64,000 nt of DNA, taken from NCBI RefSeq assembly GCF_023973145.1, contig NZ_CP099546.1, positions 620,001-684,000 on the forward strand, given 5' to 3'. This DNA comes from Natronosalvus vescus. Lineage in GTDB: Archaea > Halobacteriota > Halobacteria > Halobacteriales > Natrialbaceae. Made by a program: the position numbers and the translations under genes. This document shows positions 920 through 31,061 of this stretch, one piece after another (the first letter of the stretch is position 1; each line of letters opens with the position of its first letter). The notes under the pieces were generated by a model. That model saw only the letters and a list, made by a program, of their open reading frames with translations, had not been told where the DNA came from and did no database searches.

Positions 920-1420
920 TCACTCGTCGGCGAGGTAGTCGTCCTGGACGGCGACGACCTCGCCCGAGTCCGCACAGTCGGCGTACCGCCTGAGCGGTTC
1001 CTCGTTGAGCGTCAGGAAGGTTTCCCCCCAGCGAAACGGCTCGAGAAGGTCGGCTGCCGCCTCTTGTTCCCCGAAAATACAGAGGGCTGATGCCAGCGCC
1101 TCCGCAGTCGTCAGTTGAAACGGTCGCCCGTAGTTGACGGGGTTAGCGGCGACGAGAAATGGCAACGCACGATGGATTCCGGGCATCGAAAACGCCGCCT
1201 CTTCGGCGGATTCCCAGGAGCAATCGAGGGCCACGATTGTGTCGAGGGCGTCGTCGGTGTCGGCGGGCGACAGCGCCTGCTCGGCGTGGGGGTTGAGCAC
1301 GACGCCGTAGGGAACCTGGCTCATCGACCGGTGAAGGATTGCCCGGTCGAAGCGCTCGAGGCGACGCGCGGTGCACTTTTTCGGGTCGTCGTCGCCCTCG
1401 TAGTAGACGTGGCACTCCAC
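920..1420 (-). CDS. tsr3: 16S rRNA aminocarboxypropyltransferase Tsr3 (DUF367 family)
   Basis: Tsr3 transfers the 3-amino-3-carboxypropyl group from SAM to a (methyl)pseudouridine in the decoding region of small-subunit rRNA. Family hallmarks are visible: [14 protein letters not shown] near the N-terminus, then [31 protein letters not shown], and [30 protein letters not shown], which is the most conserved stretch of the family. The open frame extends to 1465, but the family starts just before the DDPKKC motif, so GTG at 1420 (VECHVYYEG) is preferred. That gives 166 residues, a usual archaeal length. It is divergent from the ABC importer operon. Family is secure, the exact start less so. Confidence 0.9.
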
Positions 1421-1580
1421 ACCGAGAAATAGAAACCGCGTATACAAACACGTTGGTATCCGCAAGAAACGGATGCCAATATCCGTTCACGCCTGAAATT
1501 CGTTGAGAAATGCTGGAAAATGTTGATCTATTTATAACTGGTCTTGTAAATTATCCAAAATTCGAAACCGACGACGAGAC

Positions 1581-1617: not shown

Positions 1618-3279
1618 ATGGGAACACATAACACATCACGCAGAACGGTGCTCAAGGGTGCGGGGGCGGCTGGGGTAGCAGGCCTCGCAGGGTGTCTCGG
1701 TGGCGGTGACGACGACGGCAACGGAGACGTCGACGGTGCCGACGAACTCGGCGAACAATTTCCAGAGATTCACTTCCTCGTACCGACTGCAGGCGTGAAC
1801 GCGTTCCGGAACGAACTCGCCACGATGGTCGCGGAGAACTGGGAAGAAATTGGCTTCGAGGTCAATCTCGAGGAGCTCGAGTTCGGTGCGCACGTCGATC
1901 AGGCAGTCGTCCAGCAGGACTTCGACGCATCGCTCCTCGGCTGGGGTGGAACGCCGGAACGGATCGACCCGCACACGTTCATCTTCGACATGCACCACTC
2001 CTCGACGACGGGGGAAGGTGGGCGGAACACGCCGGGCTACGAAAACCCGGAGTACGACGAACTCGCGGAACTGCAGGTGACGCAGGTCGACGAAGACGAA
2101 CGACAGCAGACGGTGTACGAGGCGCAGGAGATCATCGCTCGCGATCAACCGCGTACTTACGTCGCGAACGAAGGCGGCTTCCACCCGTACGCCAGCTCGC
2201 GCGTCGAGAACGTCGAGGCGGGGCTCGGTGAAGGGTTCAACTCGTTCTGGAATATGATTTCGGTCACGCCAACCGAAAGCGATACGGTTCGCTTTGGCTA
2301 CCCCTCCGAAATTATCTCGCTGAACCCGATGCAGGATCTGGCGACGCCGGACAGGCAGTTCGTCCGCCTCATTTACGATCAACTGTACCGGATCGGCCCG
2401 GACGGGATGCCGACGCCGTGGCTTGCCGTCGACGAGCCCGAAATCGAAGACGACGGGATGGTTTACACCGTCGAGGTGCGCGACGACATGACGTTCCACG
2501 ACGGCGAGGATCTCACGATCGACGACGTCGAGTTCACGTACGAGATGTACGCCGACTCGCCGACGTACGGCTCGCTCGTGGAGAACATCTCGGAGATTGA
2601 CACCTCCGGAAACGAGATTACCTTCCATCTCGATGAACCGTTTGCCCCGTTTACGGCGAACGTTCTCGGCCAGGTGTACATCTTCCCCGAACACATCTGG
2701 GGCGACGTCGAACCGGACGATCTCGCGGACTTCGAGGACGAGAACTGGGTCGGCAGCGGTCCGTTCCAGTTCCAGGACTGGGAGCGCCAAGAGGAACTCC
2801 AGCTCTCGGCGTTCGACGACCACTTCGAGACGCCGAACGCGGATACCTTCATCCGTATCCCCGGTGCGGACGTCTCACAGCTCGTGGGCGACCTCGAGGC
2901 CGGCCAGCTGGATATGCTCGGTGCGGTTCCACAGCCAGCGGCTATCGAGCGCGTGCGAGACGACGACGACCTCGATATGGAGGAGTTCGCGGCCGTCGGT
3001 TACGCGAAGATCGCCTACAACATGCGCCGCGATCATCTGGACGACGTCAACGTTCGCCGCGCACTGTCCTACGGTGTGCCCAAGGAGGACTGGGTCGAAC
3101 TCGTTCGTGACGGCATGGGAACGGTGACCCACACGACGATCTCGGAGGCCGTCGAGTTCTGGCACAACCCCGATGTCGAGCAGTTCGACGAGGATCTCGA
3201 CGCTGCACGAGCGGAACTCGCCGAAGGCGGATACGGCTGGGACGACGACGGAATGCTCCACTACGGCGCAGACCAGTAG
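1618..3279 (+). CDS. ABC transporter solute-binding lipoprotein, family 5, circularly permuted order
   Basis: A 553-residue binding protein for a peptide/nickel/oligosaccharide-type ABC importer. The N-terminus has a Tat motif (SRRTVLKG) and a lipobox with Cys26 (GLAGC), so it is an exported, lipid-anchored protein. The frame is open further upstream, but ATG 1618 fits the signal and the TATA spacing. The classical family-5 start (VRFGYPSEIISLNP, then DDMTFHDGEDLTIDDVEFTY) is found only at about residues 224-310. The stretch that usually ends the family (GFEVNLEELEF, FDASLLGWGG, NPEYDELAELQ, EAQEIIARDQPRTY) lies at about 50-215, right after the lipobox. The chain ends at LDAARAELAEGGYGWDDDG, an element that normally precedes that stretch. 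It heads the importer operon. Substrate unknown. Confidence 0.92.
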   Translation: MGTHNTSRRTVLKGAGAAGVAGLAGCLGGGDDDGNGDVDGADELGEQFPEIHFLVPTAGVNAFRNELATMVAENWEEIGFEVNLEELEFGAHVDQAVVQQDFDASLLGWGGTPERIDPHTFIFDMHHSSTTGEGGRNTPGYENPEYDELAELQVTQVDEDERQQTVYEAQEIIARDQPRTYVANEGGFHPYASSRVENVEAGLGEGFNSFWNMISVTPTESDTVRFGYPSEIISLNPMQDLATPDRQFVRLIYDQLYRIGPDGMPTPWLAVDEPEIEDDGMVYTVEVRDDMTFHDGEDLTIDDVEFTYEMYADSPTYGSLVENISEIDTSGNEITFHLDEPFAPFTANVLGQVYIFPEHIWGDVEPDDLADFEDENWVGSGPFQFQDWERQEELQLSAFDDHFETPNADTFIRIPGADVSQLVGDLEAGQLDMLGAVPQPAAIERVRDDDDLDMEEFAAVGYAKIAYNMRRDHLDDVNVRRALSYGVPKEDWVELVRDGMGTVTHTTISEAVEFWHNPDVEQFDEDLDAARAELAEGGYGWDDDGMLHYGADQ

Positions 3280-3355
3280 GCGAACTGCCATCTTTCATGA
3301 ACGTCTTTCACTATAATCGAATGGTCACGACGACGCACACGAGACGGGGGGAGCG

Positions 3356-4336
3356 ATGGGGCTGAGAGAGTTCGTCATCAGGCGCGTTCTCCAGCTCATC
3401 GTGACGTTCTGGGCGTTCTTTACGATCCTGTTCGTCCTGTTCCGGATGATGCCCGGCGATCCGACGTCGATGTTCATCCTCGACGGGATGACACCGGAAC
3501 AGCGCGAACAACGGATCGCCGAACTCGGGCTCGATCAGCCACTGTACGTTCAGTACGTCGAATACGCCAGGCAACTGCTGACCGGAGACTTCGGCCAGTC
3601 GTTCATCTACCGCGACCCGGTCATGGACATCATCGTCGTCCGGTTCATGAACACGATCGTGCTGATGGCGACGGCGCTGTTTTTCGCGTACGTCATCGGG
3701 ATTACGTTCGGGGCTCTCATGGGCTGGTGGCGCGATTCGAAGTTCGAGCGCGGTGGCATCGTTGTCGCGCTCATCGCTCGATCCTCCCCCGAGTTTTGGG
3801 TTGGGATCGTCCTCCTGTCGGTGTTCGTCTACTGGCTCGGCTGGTTCCCCTCGAGCGGAATGCGAACCACCGGTGGCGAACTCGGCGGCGGCTTCATCGC
3901 CCGATACGGCTCGGTCGATTTCCTCCGCCATCTGTTCCTGCCAGCCTTGACGGGCGCGATCGTCTATCTGGCGACGCCGACGCTCCTGATGCGGAGTACG
4001 ATGCTCGACGTCCTCAACGCGGACTTCATCGAGATCAAGAAAGCGGAGGGGCTACCCGAGCGAACCGTCCTGTACAAACACGCCGCCAGAAACTCGATCT
4101 TGCCGGTCGTGACGGTCGCGGCGATCGCCACAGGTGCGGCGATGGGCGGTTCCGTCGTCATCGAGACGGTCTTCAACTGGCCCGGCATGGGGCGTGAGAT
4201 GGTGCGCGCGGTGAACAACAACGATTACCCGGTCGCGATGGCCGCGTTCTTCCTCATGGGATCGGTCGTGATCATCATGAACTTCGTCGCCGACCTGGCC
4301 TACGTCTACCTCGATCCGAGGGTGGAGTACGAATGA
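3356..4336 (+). CDS. ABC transporter permease, DppB/OppB type
   Basis: A 326-residue inner-membrane subunit of the importer. It begins with the typical RRVLQLIVTFWAFFTILF helix and the conserved MPGDP just after it. It has about six membrane helices and an EAA-type cytoplasmic loop near residues 220-240 (ADFIEIKKAEGLPERTVL) that docks to the ATPases. The ATG at 3356 is preceded by a purine-rich GGGGGGAG stretch that could act as ribosome binding site. It lies 76 bases after the binding protein and overlaps the next permease by four bases (ATGA). It pairs with the following DppC-type subunit to form the transmembrane channel. Confidence 0.95.
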   Translation: MGLREFVIRRVLQLIVTFWAFFTILFVLFRMMPGDPTSMFILDGMTPEQREQRIAELGLDQPLYVQYVEYARQLLTGDFGQSFIYRDPVMDIIVVRFMNTIVLMATALFFAYVIGITFGALMGWWRDSKFERGGIVVALIARSSPEFWVGIVLLSVFVYWLGWFPSSGMRTTGGELGGGFIARYGSVDFLRHLFLPALTGAIVYLATPTLLMRSTMLDVLNADFIEIKKAEGLPERTVLYKHAARNSILPVVTVAAIATGAAMGGSVVIETVFNWPGMGREMVRAVNNNDYPVAMAAFFLMGSVVIIMNFVADLAYVYLDPRVEYE

Positions 4337-5274
4337 GCACTGAAACGACATCCCCCATCGACAACGCGATGGGCAAAGTGGGGAGCAGCGTCGACTTCGT
4401 TCGGGACAAACTCGAGGTGTTCGAGGGTGACCGACTCGGGCAGATTGGCCTGGCCATCCTGCTCGTGTTCGTCTTCGTCGGCATCTTCGCCCGACCGATC
4501 ACGATCGACTTCCTCAATATAACGATTCCGGGGCTCGCACCCCACGATCCGACCGAACGGGGCATCGGTGGGCGACTCGAGAGTCCGTCTGCGGCACACC
4601 CGCTGGGGACGACCGACCTCGGTCGTGACGTCCTCTCACAGCTCATCGTCGGCACGCGCGTGACGCTGGTCGTCGGCACGCTGGCGGCGTTCATGGCGGT
4701 GTTCATCGGCACGAACATCGGCCTCATCAGCGCCTACTTCGGCGGTATCGTCGACGACGTGCTCATGCGAATCACGGACATCGTCTACGGCTTGCCGTTC
4801 TTGCCGTTCGCGATCGTGCTCGTCGCGATTCTTGGCAGCAGCATAGTCAACATCATCGCGGCGATCGTGTTAATCCTGTGGCGCTCGACGGCACGTGTGA
4901 TCCGGTCACAGGTGCTGAGTCACAAGCAACGACCGTACGTCGAGAGCGCACAGGCGATCGGTGCCAGCAACGTCCGAATTATGTATCGGCATATCCTGCC
5001 GAACGTCCTGCCACTGGCGTTCCTGTACGCGGCGTTCGCCGTCGCCTACTCGGTCATCGCCGAGGCGAGCCTCGCGTTCCTCGGCTTTGGCGACCCGAAC
5101 ATGCTCTCGTGGGGTAAGATGATCTTCGAGGTGCGCACCGCCAATGCCGTCCGCGAGGCGTGGTGGTGGGTCTTCCCACCGGGTATCGCCATCATGCTGT
5201 TCGTGATGTCGGTGTTCTTCATCGGCCGCACGCTCGAGAAAGTGGTCAATCCTGAACTGAGGCATCAAGAATGA
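4333..5274 (+). CDS. ABC transporter permease, DppC/OppC type
   Basis: A 313-residue second permease. The first roughly 45 residues are cytoplasmic and charged, then a helix (IGLAILLVFVFVGIFARP). Next come the family's periplasmic-side signature AHPLGTTDLGRDVLSQLIVG (about residues 90-110), several helices, and the EAA loop (YVESAQAIGASNVRIMYRHI, near 200-220). The start overlaps the DppB-type gene by ATGA and its stop overlaps the next ATPase gene by ATGA, so the three genes are translationally coupled. No unusual features were seen. Confidence 0.95.
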   Translation: MSTETTSPIDNAMGKVGSSVDFVRDKLEVFEGDRLGQIGLAILLVFVFVGIFARPITIDFLNITIPGLAPHDPTERGIGGRLESPSAAHPLGTTDLGRDVLSQLIVGTRVTLVVGTLAAFMAVFIGTNIGLISAYFGGIVDDVLMRITDIVYGLPFLPFAIVLVAILGSSIVNIIAAIVLILWRSTARVIRSQVLSHKQRPYVESAQAIGASNVRIMYRHILPNVLPLAFLYAAFAVAYSVIAEASLAFLGFGDPNMLSWGKMIFEVRTANAVREAWWWVFPPGIAIMLFVMSVFFIGRTLEKVVNPELRHQE

Positions 5275-6371
5275 GTTTACTCGAGATATCCAATCTGAAG
5301 ACGTACTACCGGGCCGACGACGGCTGGGTTCGGGCGACCGACGACGTCTCGCTGTCCGTCGACCGCGGCGAAACCGTCGGGCTGGTCGGCGAAAGCGGCA
5401 GCGGGAAGACGACGCTGGCGAAGTCGATTATCCGACTGTTCCCGAAAAACGCCGAGATCGTCGACGGTTCGATCGATTACGACGGGACGGAGGTCACCGA
5501 CCTCTCGGACAGGGAACTGCGCAAGCAGATCCGCTGGTCTGAGATCTCGATGATCCCCCAGAACGCCATGAACGGGTTCGACCCCGTCTACACCGTCGGC
5601 GAACAGATCGTCGAGGTCATCCGCTACCACGAAGACGGTACGTCGAAGCAGGAGGCCCGCGAACGGGCCAGGGAACTGTTCGACGACCTGGGTATCGAAC
5701 CCGACCGCGTCGACGACTACCCCCACCAGTTCTCCGGTGGCATGGCCCAGCGGGCGATGATCGCGCTCGCACTCGCGCTCGATCCGAACATGATTCTGGC
5801 CGACGAGCCGACTACCGCGCTCGACGTGGTGATTCAGGATCGCATCCTCGAGACGATCAAGGAGAAACAACGCGAGATCAACAGCGCGATGATCATGATC
5901 ACCCACGACATGTCGGTGGTCTCGGAGACGTGCGACCGAATCGCCGTCGTCTACGGCGGCCGCATCGTCGAAGTCGCCGACGCGGCGACGATCATCAAGA
6001 ACCCGCGTCACCCCTACACCCTGGGACTGCGAAACGCCTTCCCGGACATCAGCGACGACGATCAGGAGCTGATCTCGATCCCAGGAACGCCGCCGGATCT
6101 GGTCGACCCCGACGAGGGCTGCCGATTCGCGCCGCGGTGTCCGTTCGCCGAGGACGACTGCTGGGAGGTGACGCCCGAACCCGAGGAGTACGAGGACGAG
6201 CACCTCGTCGAGTGCCACCGCGCCGACGAGATCGAATATCTGCAGGAGGAAGCCGGCAAGAAGGAGACCTGGCTCGAGCAGGATATCGGGAAGGATGGCG
6301 ACCTAGCACCCGGGAGCCGAGTCGATGCCGATGCTGATACGGAGGCCGAGGAGGTGACCACCGATGACTGA
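5271..6371 (+). CDS. ABC transporter ATP-binding protein, DppD/OppD type
   Basis: A 366-residue ATPase that energises the importer. Walker A is GESGSGKTT (about 40-48), the signature is [10 protein letters not shown] (near 160), and Walker B is [12 protein letters not shown]. The C-terminal oligopeptide-transporter domain carries four cysteines ([19 protein letters not shown]). This pattern can hold an iron-sulfur cluster in characterised DppD proteins. After it comes an acidic tail ([10 protein letters not shown]), common in halophiles. It overlaps its neighbours on both sides (ATGA upstream, 8 bases downstream). Confidence 0.95.
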
Positions 6372-7662
6372 GGGCCGCGAACTCATCAGTAAACCCGAGT
6401 CGGAGCAGTCGTACAAACTCGAGGTACGCAACCTCGAGAAACACTTTCCGGTGAACACGGGCCTCATCTCCCGCATTTTCCGGGGTGAAAGCGACAAGGT
6501 CGTCAGAGCCGTCGACGGCGTCTCTCTCGGTATTCGTGAGGGTGAGGCGTTTGGATTGGCCGGCGAATCCGGCTGTGGAAAGACGACCCTCGGCAAGTCG
6601 GCGATCCGATTGCTCGAGCCGACGGGTGGAGAACTCTACTTCGATGGGCAGGAGATCACGGACGTCGGGGGAGCCGAACTCAACGCGTTCAGACGCGAGG
6701 CCCAGATCATCCACCAGGATCCCTACCAGTCGATCAACCCCCGATTTACCGTCTACAAGTGGGTCAAAGAGCCCCTCGACGTGCACGACATCGGGACGGC
6801 CGAAGAGCGCGACGCCCGGGTGTACGAGGTCATCGAGCAGTCCGGCCTCGAACCCGCCGAAGCGTACGTAGACGAGTATCCGAGCGAACTCTCCGGCGGC
6901 GAACGCCAGCGCGTCGGCATCGCTCGAGCGCTCGCCCTCGAGCCGTCGTTCCTGCTGGCCGACGAGCCGGCGAGCATGCTCGACGTCTCGATTCGAGCGA
7001 GCATCCTCGACCTGTTCAGGCGGCTCCAGACCGAGCTGGGACTGACGGCGGTGTACATCAGTCACGACCTTTCGTTGCTCAAGCACATGTGCGATCGGAT
7101 CGGGATCATGTACCTCGGCGAACTCGTCGAAGTCGGCCCGGCCGACGAGATCATTAACAATCCCAAACACCCTTACACGCAGGCACTGGTGTCGTCGGTG
7201 CCGCGTATCGATCCGGACGTAGATCGGGAGCGAATCGAACTCGTCGGCGAGGTGCCGGATCCCGTCGACGTGCCGAGTGGCTGTCGGTTCCACCCGCGGT
7301 GTCCGAAACTCGTCCAGCCCACGAACTACGCGTTCGACCAGGATCACTGGCGAGCGGTCGCCAACTTCAGACGCGACCTGCTCGAGGACGACGTGACGAT
7401 CACGAGCGAAGCAGCGGAGGTGACGCCCGAGCGGATCCGTTCGTCCTACGAGATCCCGTCGACGCTCTCGGATTCGGCTGCCGAACGCGTTCTCGCCACT
7501 GCGCTAACGGAGGTGGCCAACGAGAATCACGAGGTCGCCAAGGATCGCCTCGAGACCGAGTTCGCGACGCCGTGTGAACGTCCGCCGATCGAGATGCACC
7601 AGGTGACGCCGAATCAGCAGGCCAAGTGCGTCCTCTACGACGACGTGGGCAGTCGTCAATAG
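6364..7662 (+). CDS. ABC transporter ATP-binding protein, DppF/OppF type, with C-terminal insertion
   Basis: A 432-residue partner ATPase. Walker A is GESGCGKTT (about 68-76), the signature is [10 protein letters not shown], and Walker B is [12 protein letters not shown]. Members are usually about 320-350 residues. Here the C-terminal Cys domain is split: [10 protein letters not shown] (about 306-315) is followed by roughly 95 extra residues. Then come [10 protein letters not shown] (near 404) and AKCVLYDD, which look like the second half of the Cys motif. The insert is mostly helical-looking and charged ([33 protein letters not shown]). It is last in the operon. The core assignment is secure; the insert's role is unknown. 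Confidence 0.93.
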
Positions 7663-7850: not shown

Positions 7851-9710
7851 TCACTCCTCGTGGATCGTCTCGCCCCGGTTCAGTCGCGAGGCGATCCGGA
7901 ACGTCTGTTCGGCCTCCCGTCGCGTCGGGAAGTGCGCTGCCATGTACCGGGCCGTCGCGACGAACGGCATCCGTCGCGTCCGCTCGTCGACAGCGGGGCC
8001 GCTGGCGTCACCCTCGAGATCGCTCGCGCCGCCCTCGAGCAGATCGAACTGGCGGAAGGCGGCCTCGACGTTCTGGAGCGTGTGGAAGCCGGCGTCCTCA
8101 CGCAGGAGGCCGTGGCCGAGCGTTCGCTTCAGTTCCGTGGGGTCGCCGCCACAGTCGAAGAACTCGCTGACGAGCCGTCCCGCGTCGTTCACGCCGCCCT
8201 CGCGGTCGAAGGTGTCGAGCAGTTCCTCGAGGACGTCCTCCGGTTCCCGGCCCGTCTCGTTCTCGCCGGGGGCCGACACCGGCGCGGGCGGGGTGTTGAG
8301 GAACCGGTCGAGGTAGACGTTCAGGGCCGCGTCGAAGACGCCGCGGTAGAGGGCGACGGCGTCGGTGCGACGCGTGCTCTGGTGGACGGCGTTGGCGTAG
8401 GTGAACGTGTGGTGTACCGTGTTCCAGTCCGAGAACTCGTTGGCGACCCCGAACTGGGCGACTCGAGTGGTGGCCGCCCGCGTGACGGCCGCGGCCAGCT
8501 CTTCGGTCGTCGCCCCCGCCAGGATGGCGTCGGCGAGGGCGTCGACGATCGCCCCGGGGTCGTCGCCGAGCAGGATGTCCTGGAAGTCCGCCGGTGGCTC
8601 CCACCCGTCGCCCGCCTCCTGGGCCGCCTCCCCCTCGGCTGCCAGCGCCTCGAGGCCGCTCGTCTCTGTCACGTCGCCCCCGTAGACGTCCTCGAGCAAC
8701 GCGACGAGGTCGATCGGTTGCCGCCACGAGGAGCGCTCGTCGCTTCGGGCGGCGGTCACGAGGGGGTCGACGAGGGAGGCGAGGACGTCGGCGGCGAGAC
8801 TGGCGTCGTCGGCGGAACCGTCGTCCCAGGCCCAGTCGACGTGCTCGAGACTTTCGAACGCCGTGTTCGCGAAGTCGAGGACGTGGCCGGTCGACAGGTA
8901 TGGGTGGTCGGTCGCGCCGGTGAAGACGATTTCAGCGACCTCGCTCTCGGTGTGGCCGGCGGCGATCGCCGTCCGAAGACAGCGCTCGGCCCCGTCGGCG
9001 TCGCGAACCTCGACGCAGTCGCGGAACCAGCCTTTGAGCCGATCGAAGGCGACGTCGCTCGTCGAAAACGACGGCTGGTCGAAGTTCGGTGGCTCGCCCG
9101 CACAGTCGCTCGCGACGTGGCGAACGCCGGTGTAGAGCGCTCGCTTTCGATCCTCGGGTTCGAGGTCGTCGACCACGTTCGCCAAACAGCCCAGGATCGT
9201 CGCCCCCGACGACCAGCCCATCTCCCGGTAGCGGGTGGCGAACTCGAGGGTCGTCGCCATCGGCTCTCGGTAGTCGACGCCGGCGTCGAGCAAACCGATC
9301 GTGGATTTCCCGATCACCAGCCTGAGGTTCTCCTCGAGCCCCGTCTCCAGCCGGTCGGCCCAGTGTTCGGCGGGCGCTTTCTCGAGCGGCGGATTCGGAT
9401 CGACGTACACCGTGCCGTCTCGCACCTCGACGGGGTAGGTTCGGACGTCGTCGGCCCACGGATCGAACGTATCGCCACACGAGAGTTCGAACCGGGCGTG
9501 GTGCCAGTGACAGGTGAGGATGCCGTCGTCGACGCTCCCCTCCGCGAGCGGAAAGCCCATGTGCGGACAGCGGTTGTCGACGGCTCGAACCTCGCCATCG
9601 TGGTAGAAGAGGGCGATCGCCGTGCCGTTTTTCGTGATCAGTTCTCGTCCCTCCGCTTCGAGCGTCTCGAGGTCGACGGCCTCGAGGAAGCCCGTGGTCT
9701 CGGATGACAT
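7851..9710 (-). CDS. Rieske [2Fe-2S] domain fused to a large helical domain
   Basis: A 619-residue protein with an N-terminal Rieske domain (about 1-105). The cluster ligands are clear as CPH (48-50) and CHWH (67-70) inside CPHMGFPLAEG and LTCHWHHARFEL, the soluble ferredoxin/dioxygenase-like form. The remaining roughly 510 residues are alpha-helical with many His, Asp and Glu. They seem to contain an internal repeat: AIAAGHTESEVAEIV followed by ATDHPYLSTGHVLDFANTAF resembles AILAGATTEELAAAV followed by VHHTFTYANAVHQS. The helical part recalls questin-oxidase-like or AhpD-like helical enzymes, but I cannot name it. No signal peptide, so it is cytoplasmic. A TATA-like CCTTTAGG lies about 27 bases ahead of the ATG. 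Monocistronic; an oxidoreductase of unknown substrate. Confidence 0.85.
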   Translation of the reverse strand: MSSETTGFLEAVDLETLEAEGRELITKNGTAIALFYHDGEVRAVDNRCPHMGFPLAEGSVDDGILTCHWHHARFELSCGDTFDPWADDVRTYPVEVRDGTVYVDPNPPLEKAPAEHWADRLETGLEENLRLVIGKSTIGLLDAGVDYREPMATTLEFATRYREMGWSSGATILGCLANVVDDLEPEDRKRALYTGVRHVASDCAGEPPNFDQPSFSTSDVAFDRLKGWFRDCVEVRDADGAERCLRTAIAAGHTESEVAEIVFTGATDHPYLSTGHVLDFANTAFESLEHVDWAWDDGSADDASLAADVLASLVDPLVTAARSDERSSWRQPIDLVALLEDVYGGDVTETSGLEALAAEGEAAQEAGDGWEPPADFQDILLGDDPGAIVDALADAILAGATTEELAAAVTRAATTRVAQFGVANEFSDWNTVHHTFTYANAVHQSTRRTDAVALYRGVFDAALNVYLDRFLNTPPAPVSAPGENETGREPEDVLEELLDTFDREGGVNDAGRLVSEFFDCGGDPTELKRTLGHGLLREDAGFHTLQNVEAAFRQFDLLEGGASDLEGDASGPAVDERTRRMPFVATARYMAAHFPTRREAEQTFRIASRLNRGETIHEE

Positions 9711-25507: not shown

Positions 25508-25560
25508 ACTCGAGTAGCGACTCGTACAACTGACCCTCACTCGAGCAGCGACTCGTACAA
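25508..25560. repeat. imperfect 31-base-period duplication of gene end
   Basis: ACTCGAGTAGCGACTCGTACAA (25508-25529) and ACTCGAGCAGCGACTCGTACAA (25539-25560) differ at one base. The second copy codes the last residues (LYESLLE) of the glycosyltransferase, and the first lies beyond its stop codon in another frame. It is probably a local slippage duplication. Confidence 0.8.
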
Positions 25561-26676
25561 TTCCCGCACCCGATCGATCGATCGATCCACCCCGAGCGCC
25601 TCCCGTCGCTCGAGGCAGTTCGCCGCCAGCTGCTCTCGGTGCTCGAGCACGGCCCGAATCCCGTCCCTGAACGACTCGAGGTCGCCTCGCTCGTAGTGGA
25701 TCCCGGTGACGCCATCCTCGACTGTCTCGGTGAGCGCGCCCGCATCGACGGCGACGACGGGCGTTCCCGTGGCGATCGATTCGAGGGCCACCAGCCCTTG
25801 GGTTTCGACCGGGCTTGGGAAGGCGAAGGCGTCGAGGCTGGCGTAAAACGCCGGCAGTTCCGACCGCTCGAGGAAGCCGAGAAACCGGGCGTCGACGCCA
25901 CGGGCGGCGGCGCGTCGTTCGAGTGCGGGACGGGCGGGGCCGTCGCCGGCGAGGACGAGGGTCACCGCCCGGGATTCGACCGCACCGCCGAACCCGGCCA
26001 CGGCGTCGATCAGTTCCTCGAGACACTTTTCGTGGCCGTGGCGGCCAGTGTAGCCGATCAGGAGCCGGTCGTTTGCTGACTCGAGTCCGTGGTGCGCTCG
26101 AAACGACCCCGCTTCCTCGGGTACCGGTCGAAACCGCTCGAGGTCGACGCCGTTGGAGACGACCGCCACCGGCGTGGAGATGCCGACCCGCTCGCGGACG
26201 TGCTCTCGGGCGGCCCTCGAGGGGGCGATGACGAGGTCTGCCCGATCGTAGAACCACCGTTCGTACGCCGTAGCCGCGGTTTGCAGCAGGCGTGTGAGAC
26301 GACCCCGGGGTGTGACGTAGCCGGCGTACTCCGCGGCCGGCGTGTGGTAGCTCGCGACCAGCGGGATATCCTGCGTTCGTGCGTAACGACTCCCGGCCAG
26401 CCCGAGTGCGAACGGCGTGTGCGCGTGCACCACGTCGGGCCTCGAGAGCCCGTTCGGAACGGTCGGCTGGCCGAGGCGGAACCCGTCGTAGAACGGAAAC
26501 GGAAGGCTCCTGACCGGAAACTCGAGGTCGCCGGGGTCGTAGTCGCCGTCGGGGAAGACAACCGCCATCTGGCCGCCCAGGCGGTGAAAGCGTTCCTGCC
26601 AGGTACTGACGGTGTAGGTGACGCCGTTGACCGTCGGCAGGTACGTATCGGTGAATGCGGCGACCTGGTCGACCAT
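25537..26676 (-). CDS. GT4-family glycosyltransferase
   Basis: A 379-residue retaining glycosyltransferase (GT-B fold). The N-terminal domain starts FTDTYLPTVNGVTYTVSTW, typical of the PimA/alpha-mannosyltransferase-like subgroup, with DVVHAHTPFALG and VASYHTPAAEYAGY. The C-terminal donor-binding domain has LLIGYTGRHGHEKCLEELID and ends in the EX7E-type motif ETQGLVALESIATGTPVV. No signal peptide; it should act at the cytoplasmic membrane face. It is last in a four-gene operon (glycosyltransferase, binding protein, PAP2, this gene), which suggests glycolipid or surface-glycan synthesis. A 22-base duplication of its 3' end follows the stop codon. Confidence 0.92.
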   Translation of the reverse strand: MVDQVAAFTDTYLPTVNGVTYTVSTWQERFHRLGGQMAVVFPDGDYDPGDLEFPVRSLPFPFYDGFRLGQPTVPNGLSRPDVVHAHTPFALGLAGSRYARTQDIPLVASYHTPAAEYAGYVTPRGRLTRLLQTAATAYERWFYDRADLVIAPSRAAREHVRERVGISTPVAVVSNGVDLERFRPVPEEAGSFRAHHGLESANDRLLIGYTGRHGHEKCLEELIDAVAGFGGAVESRAVTLVLAGDGPARPALERRAAARGVDARFLGFLERSELPAFYASLDAFAFPSPVETQGLVALESIATGTPVVAVDAGALTETVEDGVTGIHYERGDLESFRDGIRAVLEHREQLAANCLERREALGVDRSIDRVRELYESLLE

Positions 26677-26753: not shown

Positions 26754-27629
26754 TCAGTCTCGGCGGACGTACGACCGAACGCGGGTTGCGCCAGGGATCC
26801 GCTCGAGGACGGCTCCGTTTCCGATGGCGTCGTAGACCGACCAGCGACCGACGAGATACTTCGAGAGGGTGACCGAGATCCAGGCGAGGGCGATCCCGGC
26901 GACGACGTCGGTTGCCCAGTGAATGCCGAGGTACATCGTCGAGATACAGACGCTGATGCCGAGCCAGGCTGCGAGCCAGAACCAGCCGCGGTAGATGTCG
27001 CGAGTTCGATACGATAGTAGTGTGACCGTTACTGCTAGCGAAGTGTGCAGCGACGGGAAGACGTTGGTGTTGCGGTTGACCTGCCTGGTCAGGTGCTGGT
27101 ACCGTGGATACGTGTCGTACAGCAAGGCGTCGATGAGTTCGGGCATCAGGTTCCGGGGGCCGTAGGCGATGATGATCGCATAACAGACGAGGCCGAGCGT
27201 GTAGTTGAGCGTGTAGGCGGTCAGTAGCTCCCGCAACGGGCGCGTGTTCGGGAGCATAAAATACGCGACGACCGGGAAGATGAGCAAGAAGATGTAGCCG
27301 TAGATGTAGATGAACGAGAAGTACGCCGTGAGTTCCGGCGTCGCCTGTGCCTGCAGAAAGAGGATGAAGTCCCCTTCGATGTCGTAGATGACCGGTTGGG
27401 TTATCTCCCAGTCGATGAGCCAAGAGACGTCGGGGAGGTTCTGCCTGGCAACGCTGTTGAACAGCAACACCGTGACGAGCACGACCGTCACGGGAGCCAT
27501 CGCCTTCAGACGGCCTGGCCACTCACGGAGCGTTCGAACCAGTCGCTGACGGCCGACGAAGAGGGCCGTCGAGAGCACGATCAGGGTCGTAACGATGATC
27601 GCCAGCCGAACGAGCACGTCGACCAGCAT
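26754..27629 (-). CDS. PAP2-type membrane phosphatase/transferase
   Basis: A 291-residue protein with about six to seven membrane helices. The PAP2 motifs are FPSLHTSLAVTV (PSxH) and TMYLGIHWATDVVAG (HxxxD), with an upstream NRNTNV stretch. Its layout resembles the Aur1/inositol-phosphorylceramide-synthase branch more than simple lipid phosphatases. Such enzymes move or remove phosphate-linked head groups on lipids at the outer membrane face. Its ATG overlaps the stop of the preceding solute-binding lipoprotein gene (TGATG), so the two are translationally coupled. The glycosyltransferases on either side of the operon suggest a lipid-linked glycan pathway. Confidence 0.88.
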   Translation of the reverse strand: MLVDVLVRLAIIVTTLIVLSTALFVGRQRLVRTLREWPGRLKAMAPVTVVLVTVLLFNSVARQNLPDVSWLIDWEITQPVIYDIEGDFILFLQAQATPELTAYFSFIYIYGYIFLLIFPVVAYFMLPNTRPLRELLTAYTLNYTLGLVCYAIIIAYGPRNLMPELIDALLYDTYPRYQHLTRQVNRNTNVFPSLHTSLAVTVTLLSYRTRDIYRGWFWLAAWLGISVCISTMYLGIHWATDVVAGIALAWISVTLSKYLVGRWSVYDAIGNGAVLERIPGATRVRSYVRRD

Positions 27630-29446
27630 CAGGACCTCACCACCAGCGTCTCACCGTCGTACCGATACCCGGCCTCCTCGAACCCCGATCTGGCGGCCGC
27701 CGCGTCCAGTTCGCCGCCAGTTCCGTGAAACGGCACGACCGGGTCACCGTCCTCGAACGCGAGCGATTGTGGCATCCACTCGTCGAAAACGGGGGTCGCG
27801 ATGGGCGTAGCGTACCCCTCGAACACCGTTTCGGCGGCCCAGGCCTTATCGATCAGTCTGGCAACCGCCTGGCGGAAGTACGGGTTGCTACATGGGCCAC
27901 GACGGACGTTGAATCCCAGGTGGTAGAACTCCTGTGACGTCGTTTGCAACCGACGGAGTTCGTCGGTGTCCTCGAGGTCGCCGAGCGCGTAGGCCTCGAG
28001 GGGCGAGATCGTAACGTCGGCGTCGTCGTTTTCGATGAGCGCGATCGCGGACGGGCTTCGGGGATCGATCTGGGCACGAAAGGAGGTGGCCGTTGCTGCC
28101 GGGAGGTCGACATCCGGTCTGGTCGTGAAGTGGTCGTCGAAGCGCTCGAGGCTCAGGTGTTCGCGCTCGACGCGTTCGTCGAACCGGAACGGGCCGCTGC
28201 CGATCGCCGGCACGTTGTCGACGACGAGTGCCTCCGTGGCGTCCTGGGCCACCCGAACGCCGCGAACGTGTGCCGGATCCGCTCGGGGTTCCCAGATGTG
28301 CTGGGGGAGGATCGGGACGGTCAACGCTCGCTCGACGACGGCTTCGGCGGCGTCGACCTCGGCGGCGATCGTGTGGTTGTCCGGCGTCTCGATCGCGTCC
28401 GCGTCGATGGCTGACGCGAGCCCGCGATAGTGTGGGGACGGCGCGGGAACGTCGGTCTGCCCCATCGCGGTGTCTGCGAGGAACCGGTACGTAAATTCGA
28501 CGTCGTCCGCCGTTACCGGCTCGCCGTCGTGGAACGTATGGTCGTCCCTGATCGTCATTTCGAGGCGGCCGTCCTGGTACGTCCACTCACTCGCCAGCCA
28601 CGGCACCAACTCGTCGGTCTCCGGATCCGGTGTGGCAAGGGAGTCGTACAGCAACTCCATGATCACCGGCTGGTAGCGATACTCGACGGTGAGCGGGTTG
28701 ACGTTTTCAGACGGGCTCGCGTAAATGACCGTCCCACGGAGGCGTCCCGGCTCGTCCGGATCGGCCTCGGTTCCTGGCTCGAGGTCGAGATAGCCAAGTC
28801 GGGTCGCCAGGGCGTGTTCGTTCCAGCCGTCGAAGCGGGTGGTTCGGGCCAGGCGAACCTCTTCGAATCGACAGATGGGGACGAACGGTTGCTCCAGGGC
28901 CACGTACTCGAGCAGTTCTTCGACGGCGTCGCGTCGCTCCTCGCCATCGGTCACTCGCTGACGGTCGAGCAGCCGATCGACTGTCGTGTCCGCGACCCCG
29001 AACGGATTCTGCCAGCCCGCTTCTTCTGCGTACCGTGAGTACAGCGCTTCGTACAGGAAATCCGGATCGCTGCCGCCCGGGTGACGACCGACGTAGAGGT
29101 CGAAGTCGTGATTGATGAGCGTCTCTCGGCGGAACTCCTCGGAGGAACGAAGGCGAATCGAGGTGTCGATGCCGACGGTCTCGAGGTGGTCGGCGAGGCG
29201 GCGAACGATCTGGATCGCCTGTCGGTCGCCGTCAGCCGGCTGGGTCGTGATCGAGAGCGAGAGTTGGTCGAGTCGATTTCGGTTGACTGCCGTTCGAAAT
29301 TCGCGTATGCAGCCGCTGAGGCCGAGTGTAAGTCCGGTTGCCGTCGCTGCGAGCATGGAGCGGCGATCGACCCTTCCCGCGTTTCTAGTCGATGGCTCCG
29401 CTACGCTACGCTCGAACTCTGCCTCGCTTGGCCCGGTTGTGGTCAC
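27629..29446 (-). CDS. orphan family-5 solute-binding lipoprotein, circularly permuted order
   Basis: A 605-residue Tat lipoprotein starting with GTG. Twin arginines (VDRRSMLAATATGL) lead to the lipobox GLSGC with Cys46. The mature chain begins with what is normally the C-terminal part of family-5 binding proteins (ADHLETVGIDTSIRLRS, HDFDLYVGRHPGGSDPDFL, VEELLEYVALEQPFVPIC; about 60-215). The usual N-terminal part (VIYASPSENVNPLTVEYRY, DDHTFHDGEPVTADDVEFTY) begins near residue 240. It ends with LDAAAARSGFEEAGYRYDG, an element normally internal. No permease or ATPase genes are nearby. It lies between a glycosyltransferase gene and a PAP2 gene, coupled to the latter by TGATG. Ligand unknown. 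Confidence 0.9.
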   Translation of the reverse strand: MTTTGPSEAEFERSVAEPSTRNAGRVDRRSMLAATATGLTLGLSGCIREFRTAVNRNRLDQLSLSITTQPADGDRQAIQIVRRLADHLETVGIDTSIRLRSSEEFRRETLINHDFDLYVGRHPGGSDPDFLYEALYSRYAEEAGWQNPFGVADTTVDRLLDRQRVTDGEERRDAVEELLEYVALEQPFVPICRFEEVRLARTTRFDGWNEHALATRLGYLDLEPGTEADPDEPGRLRGTVIYASPSENVNPLTVEYRYQPVIMELLYDSLATPDPETDELVPWLASEWTYQDGRLEMTIRDDHTFHDGEPVTADDVEFTYRFLADTAMGQTDVPAPSPHYRGLASAIDADAIETPDNHTIAAEVDAAEAVVERALTVPILPQHIWEPRADPAHVRGVRVAQDATEALVVDNVPAIGSGPFRFDERVEREHLSLERFDDHFTTRPDVDLPAATATSFRAQIDPRSPSAIALIENDDADVTISPLEAYALGDLEDTDELRRLQTTSQEFYHLGFNVRRGPCSNPYFRQAVARLIDKAWAAETVFEGYATPIATPVFDEWMPQSLAFEDGDPVVPFHGTGGELDAAAARSGFEEAGYRYDGETLVVRS

Positions 29447-29531: not shown

Positions 29532-30650
29532 TCACCGACCGTGTTCGTCGATTGCGCGGTCATATACCTCGAGCAGCCGCTCGCCGACGCGTTCGAGGCG
29601 GTGTTCGGCAGCGGTTTCCTGGGCGGCTTCGCCGAGACGTTCTCGCAGCCCCGGGTTTGCCGCCAGCCGCTCGAGGGCGCCCCGGAACTCGCGTTCGCTC
29701 GAGCAGAACAGGCAGTCGACGCCGTCGGTGTAGAACTCCCGGAAGACGGGGAGGTCGCGGAGGACGACGGCCTTCCCGCAGGCCATCGCCTCGAGGACGG
29801 CGATCCCCTGGTTCTCGGCGTGGGTCGGAAACAGAAAGACGTCGCCGGCGGCGAACGCCTCGCGTTTGTCGTCGACCCAGCCGGTGAACGTCACGTTCGG
29901 GGGTGGATTTTCTGTCCAGTGGCGAACAACAGGGCTCGCCTGGGGGCCGCTGTCATAGGGGCCGAACCAGACGAACTCGTAGGGCATCCGTACGGCGAGA
30001 CGGCAAAACGTCGAGAGCCCCTTACGCTCGAACACGTTGCCGACGGCGAAGACGACCAGGTCGTCCGCCGCGAGGCTGAACCGATCGCGCGCCGGTTCTC
30101 GAAGGCGATCGACTCCCTCGAGCGAGGCGTGGTCGACCCCGTTCGTGATCGGTTCGATGGGGGCGTCGACCGGGTAGGCCTCGAGGTGGCGTTTCGTCTG
30201 CTCGCTGGGACAGCAGACGAGGTCGGCCCGGGAGTACATATAGCGGAGATAGCGTCCGAGCGGCCCGGCGAGCGTGTTCGAGCCACGAAAGCTTCCCCGG
30301 AAGTCCTCGCGAGTGACGTGTGCGTGGAGGACGAGCGGGATGCCGTGGCGGTTGGCGTATCGAGCGACGGCAAGCGAACCGGGGCCAATAGCGTTGCAGT
30401 GGACGACGTCGTGGACGGCGATGGGCAGTGAGTCACGGAACAGCCTGACGGGAACGCCGGCGAGCGAGCCACCCCACGGATCTGTACAGACCTCAAGGTC
30501 GACCGGGTCGACGGGCAACTCGTCGTCACCGCCGTCGGCTCTCGCTCGCTCTCGAAGCCGAGTCAGCGCCCGCCGCTGCTGGGCGGCGGCCGTCCCGATG
30601 CCGCTTCGCTGGAGCGCTCTCTCGAGTTCCAGGTAGGTGAGTACGCGCAC
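29532..30650 (-). CDS. GT4-family glycosyltransferase
   Basis: A 372-residue glycosyltransferase, the first gene of the operon. The frame is open far upstream, but the first family-like start is GTG 30650 (VRVLTYLELERALQRSG). The acceptor domain includes VVHCNAIGPGSLAVARY and VLHAHVTREDFRGSF. The donor domain has VVFAVGNVFERKGLSTF and the EX7E-type motif ENQGIAVLEAMACGKAVV. Cytoplasmic with peripheral membrane binding likely. It precedes the orphan binding protein by 86 bases and is divergent from the RNase P subunit gene. Donor and acceptor cannot be told. Confidence 0.9.
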   Translation of the reverse strand: MRVLTYLELERALQRSGIGTAAAQQRRALTRLRERARADGGDDELPVDPVDLEVCTDPWGGSLAGVPVRLFRDSLPIAVHDVVHCNAIGPGSLAVARYANRHGIPLVLHAHVTREDFRGSFRGSNTLAGPLGRYLRYMYSRADLVCCPSEQTKRHLEAYPVDAPIEPITNGVDHASLEGVDRLREPARDRFSLAADDLVVFAVGNVFERKGLSTFCRLAVRMPYEFVWFGPYDSGPQASPVVRHWTENPPPNVTFTGWVDDKREAFAAGDVFLFPTHAENQGIAVLEAMACGKAVVLRDLPVFREFYTDGVDCLFCSSEREFRGALERLAANPGLRERLGEAAQETAAEHRLERVGERLLEVYDRAIDEHGR

Positions 30651-30773
30651 GGGTTGGTCGTATCGACTGACACAACCGGGAAAGTCGTACCGGTTAGATC
30701 TGGCACAACGGCGTTGTTTACGGGTACGTCTCAAACACAACAGCAATAGGCGACCCCCAGTAACAGCGATGTG

Positions 30774-31061
30774 ATGAGCGTCGCCGCCGAACGCATCGAC
30801 CGCCTCCACGAGCTGGCTCGAGCGGCGGCTGCCGACGGCGAGGACGAACGGGCGAAAGCGTACGTCAGGCTGGCGCGTCGCGTTGCCGAGCGAAACCGGC
30901 TGGCGCTCCCGCGGACGTTCAAACGCTTCACGTGTGACGCCTGCGACGCCTACCTCCGGCCCGGCGTGAACGCTCGAGTCCGCCTCCAGAACGGCCACGT
31001 CGTCGTTACCTGCGACTGCGGTCACCACGCCCGTTATCCCTACGACCGACACGACGGGTGA
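30774..31061 (+). CDS. rnp4: ribonuclease P protein component 4
   Basis: A 95-residue zinc-ribbon subunit (Rpr2/Rpp21 family) of archaeal RNase P, which matures tRNA 5' ends. The N-terminal helices (AAERIDRLHELARAAAADG, RAKAYVRLARRVAERN) are followed by KRFTCDACDAYLRPG and VTCDCGHHARYPY, which give the CxxC...CxC metal site. Starts at GTG 30771 or ATG 30774 are equally placed; ATG is chosen. It is the first of a plus-strand cluster with yhbY and the MscS channel, an arrangement that makes sense for the two RNA-related genes. Confidence 0.93.
   Translation: MSVAAERIDRLHELARAAAADGEDERAKAYVRLARRVAERNRLALPRTFKRFTCDACDAYLRPGVNARVRLQNGHVVVTCDCGHHARYPYDRHDG

Follow-up and report, generated by a model that had tools for sequence, protein, structure and literature searches.

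The gene at positions 1618-3279 of the window, the whole stretch of 64,000 nucleotides from Natronosalvus vescus analysed here, encodes a binding lipoprotein of family 5 (cluster C, OppA/DppA-type) that is complete but has the two segments of the fold swapped. The swapped order, the completeness of both parts, the intact operons and conservation in archaea as well as bacteria were all observed. The protein is very probably the receptor of a Dpp/Opp-type importer, with a family-5 fold that has been circularly permuted in nature. The open reading frame was verified (ATG at 1618, stop codon at 3277-3279, product of 553 aa). The parts of the product and the genes of its operon are as follows.

1618-1695, plus strand: residues 1-26, Tat signal with its lipobox (SRRTVLK...LAGC, Cys26), read from the sequence
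1747-2259, plus strand: first segment, residues ~44-214, the canonical family-5 C-terminal segment now at the front (phmmer to 8efz_A; hhalign to the canonical C-part)
2260-2283, plus strand: junction of the native ends, residues ~215-222 (alignment; AF2)
2284-3276, plus strand: residues 223-553, second segment, which corresponds to the canonical N-terminal part and closes with LAEGGYGWDDDGMLHYGADQ (Pfam; hhalign; VIA-align to 1xoc)
3356-4336, plus strand: DppB/OppB-type permease (BPD_transp_1 and BPD_transp_1_N)
4333-5274, plus strand: DppC/OppC-type permease, overlapping the preceding gene (BPD_transp_1)
5271-6371, plus strand: ATPase with oligopeptide C-terminal domain (ABC_tran and oligo_HPY)
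6364-7662, plus strand: second ATPase with oligopeptide C-terminal domain (ABC_tran and oligo_HPY)

The Tat lipobox of the protein is SRRTVLKGAGAAGVAGLAGC; its TAT_signal matches were weak, under the curated cut-off in Pfam and in NCBIfam. PF00496 (SBP_bac_5) matched the protein with E 1.2e-63 (215.9 bits, cut-off 32.4), and its best stretch aligned residues 265-546 to model positions 2-285 of 368. The top sequence and structural matches were all cluster C proteins. Pairwise alignments revealed the swapped order. Using phmmer, residues 223-546 aligned to 13-329 of PDB chain 8efz_A (CcNikZ-II) and residues 52-180 to 338-457 of the same chain, and the alignments to AppA (1xoc) and DppA (1dpp) were split and reversed in just this way. 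Canonical paralogs encoded by the same genome were also swapped relative to the query; in one of them, L004, residues 219-538 aligned to 63-380 and residues 62-184 to 397-513. Furthermore, the NCBIfam OppA entry PRK15104 and PDB chains aligned residues 65-176 to their own C-terminal parts.

The halves were also compared as profiles. Twenty-three permuted proteins (alignment A1) were cut at residue 216 and 20 canonical proteins were cut correspondingly. In hhalign, the first half matched the canonical C-part (probability 99.8, E 4.5e-30, 146 columns) and the second half matched the canonical N-part (probability 100, E 3.5e-76, 318 columns). The cross-comparisons, which served as the negative control, gave no match, either for the first half with the canonical N-part (0.4%) or for the second half with the canonical C-part (0.4%). 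The N-terminal and C-terminal parts of the family-5 fold are both present in the protein according to hhalign, and they do not follow the canonical order of family-5 members. Because their order is swapped, the protein is a permuted variant and not a standard family-5 member. An HMM of the permuted family sorted proteins sharply: permuted proteins gave a single unbroken domain over most of 5-550, and canonical proteins gave a ~220-545 domain and then a ~55-195 domain. A few permuted proteins were split into two stretches by long acidic inserts, still in the permuted order.

An AF2 model built from alignment A1 had a mean pLDDT of 89.8 and a pTM of 0.85, with low confidence confined to residues 1-36; the blocks at the junction, residues 211-230, were confident (mean 95). 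Sequential structural alignment placed model residues ~217-553 on solved family-5 chains, from their first residue to ~345-385, with Z 21.6-25.4 in the rows shown. For example, VIA-align matched 1xoc with Z 25.4 (329 residues, 3.9 A, model 221-553), and 4oet was matched with Z 23.7 (324 residues, 2.3 A). The remainder of both chains was left unaligned, and the sequential TM-score was ~0.5. An alignment confined mainly to ~217-553 of the model is what a sequential aligner should give for a permuted chain. When residues 40-225 were folded alone as a single sequence, the pLDDT was 33. In OppA, the native ends are both located in domain I, and residue ~360 is located in domain III. This places the new ends of the permuted protein in the C-lobe.

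The initial annotation had proposed a circular permutation of a family-5 binding lipoprotein with its new ends inside the C-lobe, and profiles, alignments and the model all bear this out. It had assigned residues ~50-215 to the canonical final segment, as hhalign confirmed, and had rightly placed this segment after the lipobox, although its start is better put at ~44-50. The short linker between the native ends is real and lies at ~210-223 instead of 215-223. The chain was said to end at the LAEGGYG element, which is nearly right; it extends 13 residues further, WDDDGMLHYGADQ. The comparison of halves found neither an unrelated domain at 50-215 nor a C-terminal part that is complete in the normal order, the two outcomes named beforehand as contrary to a permutation.

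We propose that the original chain ends, which both belong to the N-lobe, were fused via about eight residues and that the new termini lie in a C-lobe loop, after the helix ending in LAEGGYG. The permuted protein would keep the usual two-lobed clamshell, would be lipidated at Cys26 and, like DppA, would pass its ligand on to the two permeases. Its tether, however, would run through the C-lobe and not through the N-lobe.

The binding-protein gene is separated by a gap of 76 bases from the first permease gene, and the permease and ATPase genes overlap one another by 4 to 8 bases. Two permeases and two oligo_HPY ATPases in one operon with a binding protein make up an importer of the Dpp/Opp type. 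The operon was described from the outset as complete and coupled and the gene as not decayed, which agrees with the intact permease-permease-ATPase-ATPase set of overlapping genes. The gene order SBP-B-C-D-F is common to L044, L050, L052, L106 and L107. In other genomes, operons of group a (see below) adjoin M28 and M20 peptidases, a TldD-related peptidase, hydantoinase/oxoprolinase, creatininase and gamma-glutamylcyclotransferase. Because M20/M28 peptidases and hydrolases of the oxoprolinase type often adjoin the operons of relatives, a peptide or an N-modified or cyclic amino acid is the probable ligand, a guess by analogy with these neighbours. No peptidase was identified alongside the window's own operon (1618-7662), and neither this operon nor the flanks of orthologous operons gave a substrate clue. 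A divergent ORF lies upstream of the operon at 920-1465 (minus strand); it carries a 16-residue motif and may encode a Tsr3-type rRNA modification enzyme. On the other side, 7851-9710 (minus strand) encodes a convergent protein of 619 aa that starts with a Rieske domain and continues into a long C-terminal part without an assignment, and a similar-looking ORF flanks the operon in genome G026 (L165:2102-3922).

The genome of Natronosalvus vescus encodes three permuted family-5 proteins (1618-3279, 27629-29446 and L010) plus several canonical ones. The second permuted gene and its neighbour are located in the window.

27629-29446, minus strand: a family-5 binding lipoprotein of 605 aa, permuted and colinear with that at 1618-3279 (SBP_bac_5 only at 279-599)
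26754-27629, minus strand: membrane phosphatase of the PAP2 type, encoded immediately downstream of 27629-29446 (PAP2_3, E 3e-19)

Residues 8-547 of the first protein align colinearly to 28-602 of the second, with 25% identity and E 3e-25. Glycosyltransferase genes (25540-26676 and ~29532-30785) flank 26754-29446, and no permease genes adjoin 27629-29446. The SBP-PAP2 pair was also observed in other haloarchaea, twice in tandem in L098 and L099, and a glycosyltransferase precedes it in L099 and L101. Judging from gene neighbourhoods, the pair of an orphan binding protein and PAP2 is a conserved haloarchaeal module. The third permuted protein, L010 (L104:4125-6023; G000:C1:1548133-1550019), has a long acidic Asp/Glu/Gly/Thr insert within the fold and is likewise followed by a membrane-type ORF, of ~287 aa.

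The permuted proteins are widespread, numbering hundreds of relatives across archaea and bacteria. Colinear orthologs of the 1618-3279 protein from other haloarchaea were 76-94% identical to it, and bacterial ones 36%. At the family level, colinear full-length relatives were found in 20 of 61 genomes at 1e-40. In Halobacteria, the A1 profile matched in 188 of 242 genomes at 1e-60, at least 154 of them at 1e-90; each of the listed matches at 1e-90 was one colinear stretch that spanned almost all of the model. Twelve haloarchaeal genomes with weaker or borderline matches were re-examined, and most were permuted and one (G258) was canonical. Permuted relatives were also found in bacteria, in Halobacteroidaceae (Bacillota), Actinomycetota and Alphaproteobacteria; examples are Natroniella sulfidigena, a Nitriliruptoria MAG and Rhodobacteraceae F11138. 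They occurred in 13 of 199 genomes of the phylum of Natroniella, in 2 of 396 genomes of the Actinomycetota sample, the phylum of the Nitriliruptoria MAG (two colinear matches, the other three canonical), and in 1 of 398 genomes of the Pseudomonadota sample, the last two counts being lower bounds with three candidates scored per genome. The family is patchy in Pseudomonadota and Actinomycetota. Plasmid-borne relatives were found in Nitratireductor, Microvirga, Neorhizobium, Ketogulonicigenium, Roseomonas, Maritalea and many haloarchaea; in 39 of 70 plasmid records a match at one place covered 80% or more of the query. Annotated permuted relatives carry the product name 'ABC transporter substrate-binding protein', and among the PDB matches listed, no chain was colinear with the permuted profile. 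The suggestion of a possibly known haloarchaeal subgroup holds insofar as the proteins are widespread in haloarchaea. It was too narrow: they are found also in several bacterial phyla, no description of them was found in the open-access literature, and more than one permutation is involved. Frames of 880-924 codons around the permuted genes L051, L100 and L102 were considered as carriers of a third segment, and their extra codons had no family match.

Different readings of the 1618-3279 protein were weighed against this evidence. If residues 50-215 were an unrelated N-terminal domain, the family-5 part would be truncated or normally ended, and the Pfam stretch taken alone does resemble a truncated match. 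However, the first half matches the canonical C-part and the second half does not, and PRK15104 and the PDB chains place residues 65-176 at their C-terminal parts. The profile comparison of the halves rules this reading out, and we give it next to no credence. An artefact of sequencing or assembly, a frameshift or a decaying gene is just as hard to believe: nothing speaks for it except the oddity itself, whereas the open frame runs through 553 codons, colinear orthologs exist in haloarchaea and bacteria, at least 154 of 242 haloarchaeal genomes have the permuted form, and the operon is intact and coupled. Conservation therefore rules it out as well. It is very unlikely, if not to the same degree, that the permuted protein no longer takes part in transport and is a ligand sensor or similar, as the orphan PAP2-linked copies might be. 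Both 27629-29446 and L010 adjoin a PAP2 phosphatase or a similar membrane ORF without adjacent permease genes, which fits such a role, but the permease-permease-ATPase-ATPase operon of the 1618-3279 type is kept from haloarchaea to Natroniella and Rhodobacteraceae.

The permuted proteins fall into three groups. Most of them, among them P0001 and the orphan PAP2-linked copies, belong to group a, in which the chain typically closes with LxxGGYxWDDDGxLHY or a variant. Group b (L078-L084, L088 and L089; bacterial) ends directly after the helix, for example with LLREAGYKVD. Group c (L038, L043 and L122-L141) starts with the helix DQERAMQLLEEGFEEEGFEPPYEADLVTNENPERV that closes the group a chain, and ends before this helix. 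The cut of group c is thus one helix earlier than that of group a, while groups a and b are cut nearly alike. The canonical-order proteins L119 and L142-L149 are 42-51% identical to the permuted group c protein L038, with swapped segments in most alignments (46% over both segments, swapped, for L119; 43-51% for L142 and L143). The canonical orthologs L119, L142 and L143 have the same operon order as L038 but the canonical segment order, and they constitute a natural matched pair for comparison. The operons of L152 (permuted) and L154 (canonical) also have the same order, and their transport proteins are 67, 65, 61 and 74% identical, no lower than between two permuted operons. L154 and L152 are a ready matched pair of canonical and permuted binding proteins. 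For group a, the nearest canonical relatives found were L091 and L093, which come from the same phylum as the Nitriliruptoria MAG.

In trees of rotated sequences, groups a, b and c were set apart among canonical proteins, and well-supported branches forced at least 2 to 3 changes. Within the group c tree, canonical f4-family proteins (L142-L149 and L119) nested inside the permuted L122-L141. Canonical proteins inside permuted group c imply a reversion or several gains there, and this nesting hints at reversion or repeated permutation within haloarchaea. These sequence comparisons support more than one origin of the family-5 permutation, with group c arising independently; the independent origin of group c follows from its shifted cut and its close canonical relatives, without reliance on deep branches. 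A single permutation for all, with the canonical proteins among permuted ones being reversions or tree errors, is unlikely. The cuts of all three groups lie around the same C-lobe helix, those of a and b being nearly identical, and the f4 canonical proteins inside group c need at least one reversion or several gains in any case, both of which fit a single origin. Against it are the separation of the groups with the changes it forces, the shifted cut of group c, and the AU test, which rejected one clade for all permuted proteins (p-AU 0.0033) in a reduced 36-row set with long branches under the simple LG+G4 model. On balance, multiple origins are preferred. A stronger form, in which at least three separate permutations took place, always no more than about a helix away from one C-lobe loop, and permuted and canonical haloarchaeal orthologs serve the same importer, has in our judgement an even chance of being correct.

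As for the route, a tandem duplication of a binding-protein gene is the most likely origin. It would have been followed by in-frame loss of the N-part of the first copy behind its signal peptide and of the C-part of the second copy. This route of duplication and complementary truncation, or an equivalent one, would have been taken at least twice in the family. None of the proteins examined had the C-N-C arrangement of a surviving duplication intermediate.

Natural permutation is known in another binding-protein fold. TpMglB-2 (Tp0684) of Treponema pallidum and its relatives were described as 'Type Ic / cluster Bc' permuted binding proteins, and the authors proposed tethering as a possible driver of the permutation (PMC4990184). 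Like the present proteins, TpMglB-2 is a lipid-tethered ABC binding protein in which a known binding-protein fold occurs naturally in circularly permuted form. It differs in having the glucose/galactose-type cluster B fold, whereas the present proteins belong to cluster C, are archaeal and bacterial, probably have several origins, and in some cases have no lipobox. The lipobox is found in most permuted family-5 proteins and is absent from the alphaproteobacterial L052, L095 and L096 and from group b L082-L084 and L088. This suggests that tethering is not the general cause, unless the lipobox was lost later. AppA (1xoc), DppA (1dpp), NikZ (8efz) and OppA share with the permuted proteins the same two segments, motifs (FHDGxxLTxDDVxFT and NPEYDxL) and operon partners, but their segment order is the reverse, and their termini, and hence the lipid anchor, would be in the other lobe. 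Circularly permuted periplasmic binding proteins have been engineered for biosensors, and binding-protein folds tolerate permutation. These permutants are man-made and mostly derive from binding-protein families other than family 5. We found no description of permuted family-5 proteins in the open-access literature, most subscription papers being outside this coverage; in PMC2588589, SBP_bac_5 appears only as a table entry. Permutation of binding proteins is known from TpMglB-2, with its other fold, whereas its occurrence in family 5 has apparently escaped notice.

Few binding-protein families are as large or as well studied as family 5, and yet a widespread class with reversed order is annotated in it as ordinary. 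Domain searches give only partial matches for such proteins, which is a practical flaw. The members without a lipobox bear on the tethering proposal made for TpMglB-2, and the use of permuted and unpermuted orthologs by the same transporter would be a natural experiment on docking versus anchor position. The permutation site is naturally proven and may be of use in biosensor design. If at least three permutations did take place and orthologs of both orders serve one importer, permutation would act as a topological switch, recurrent and open to selection, between tethering by one lobe and by the other. Evolution appears to have made repeatedly the rearrangement that protein engineers make by hand.
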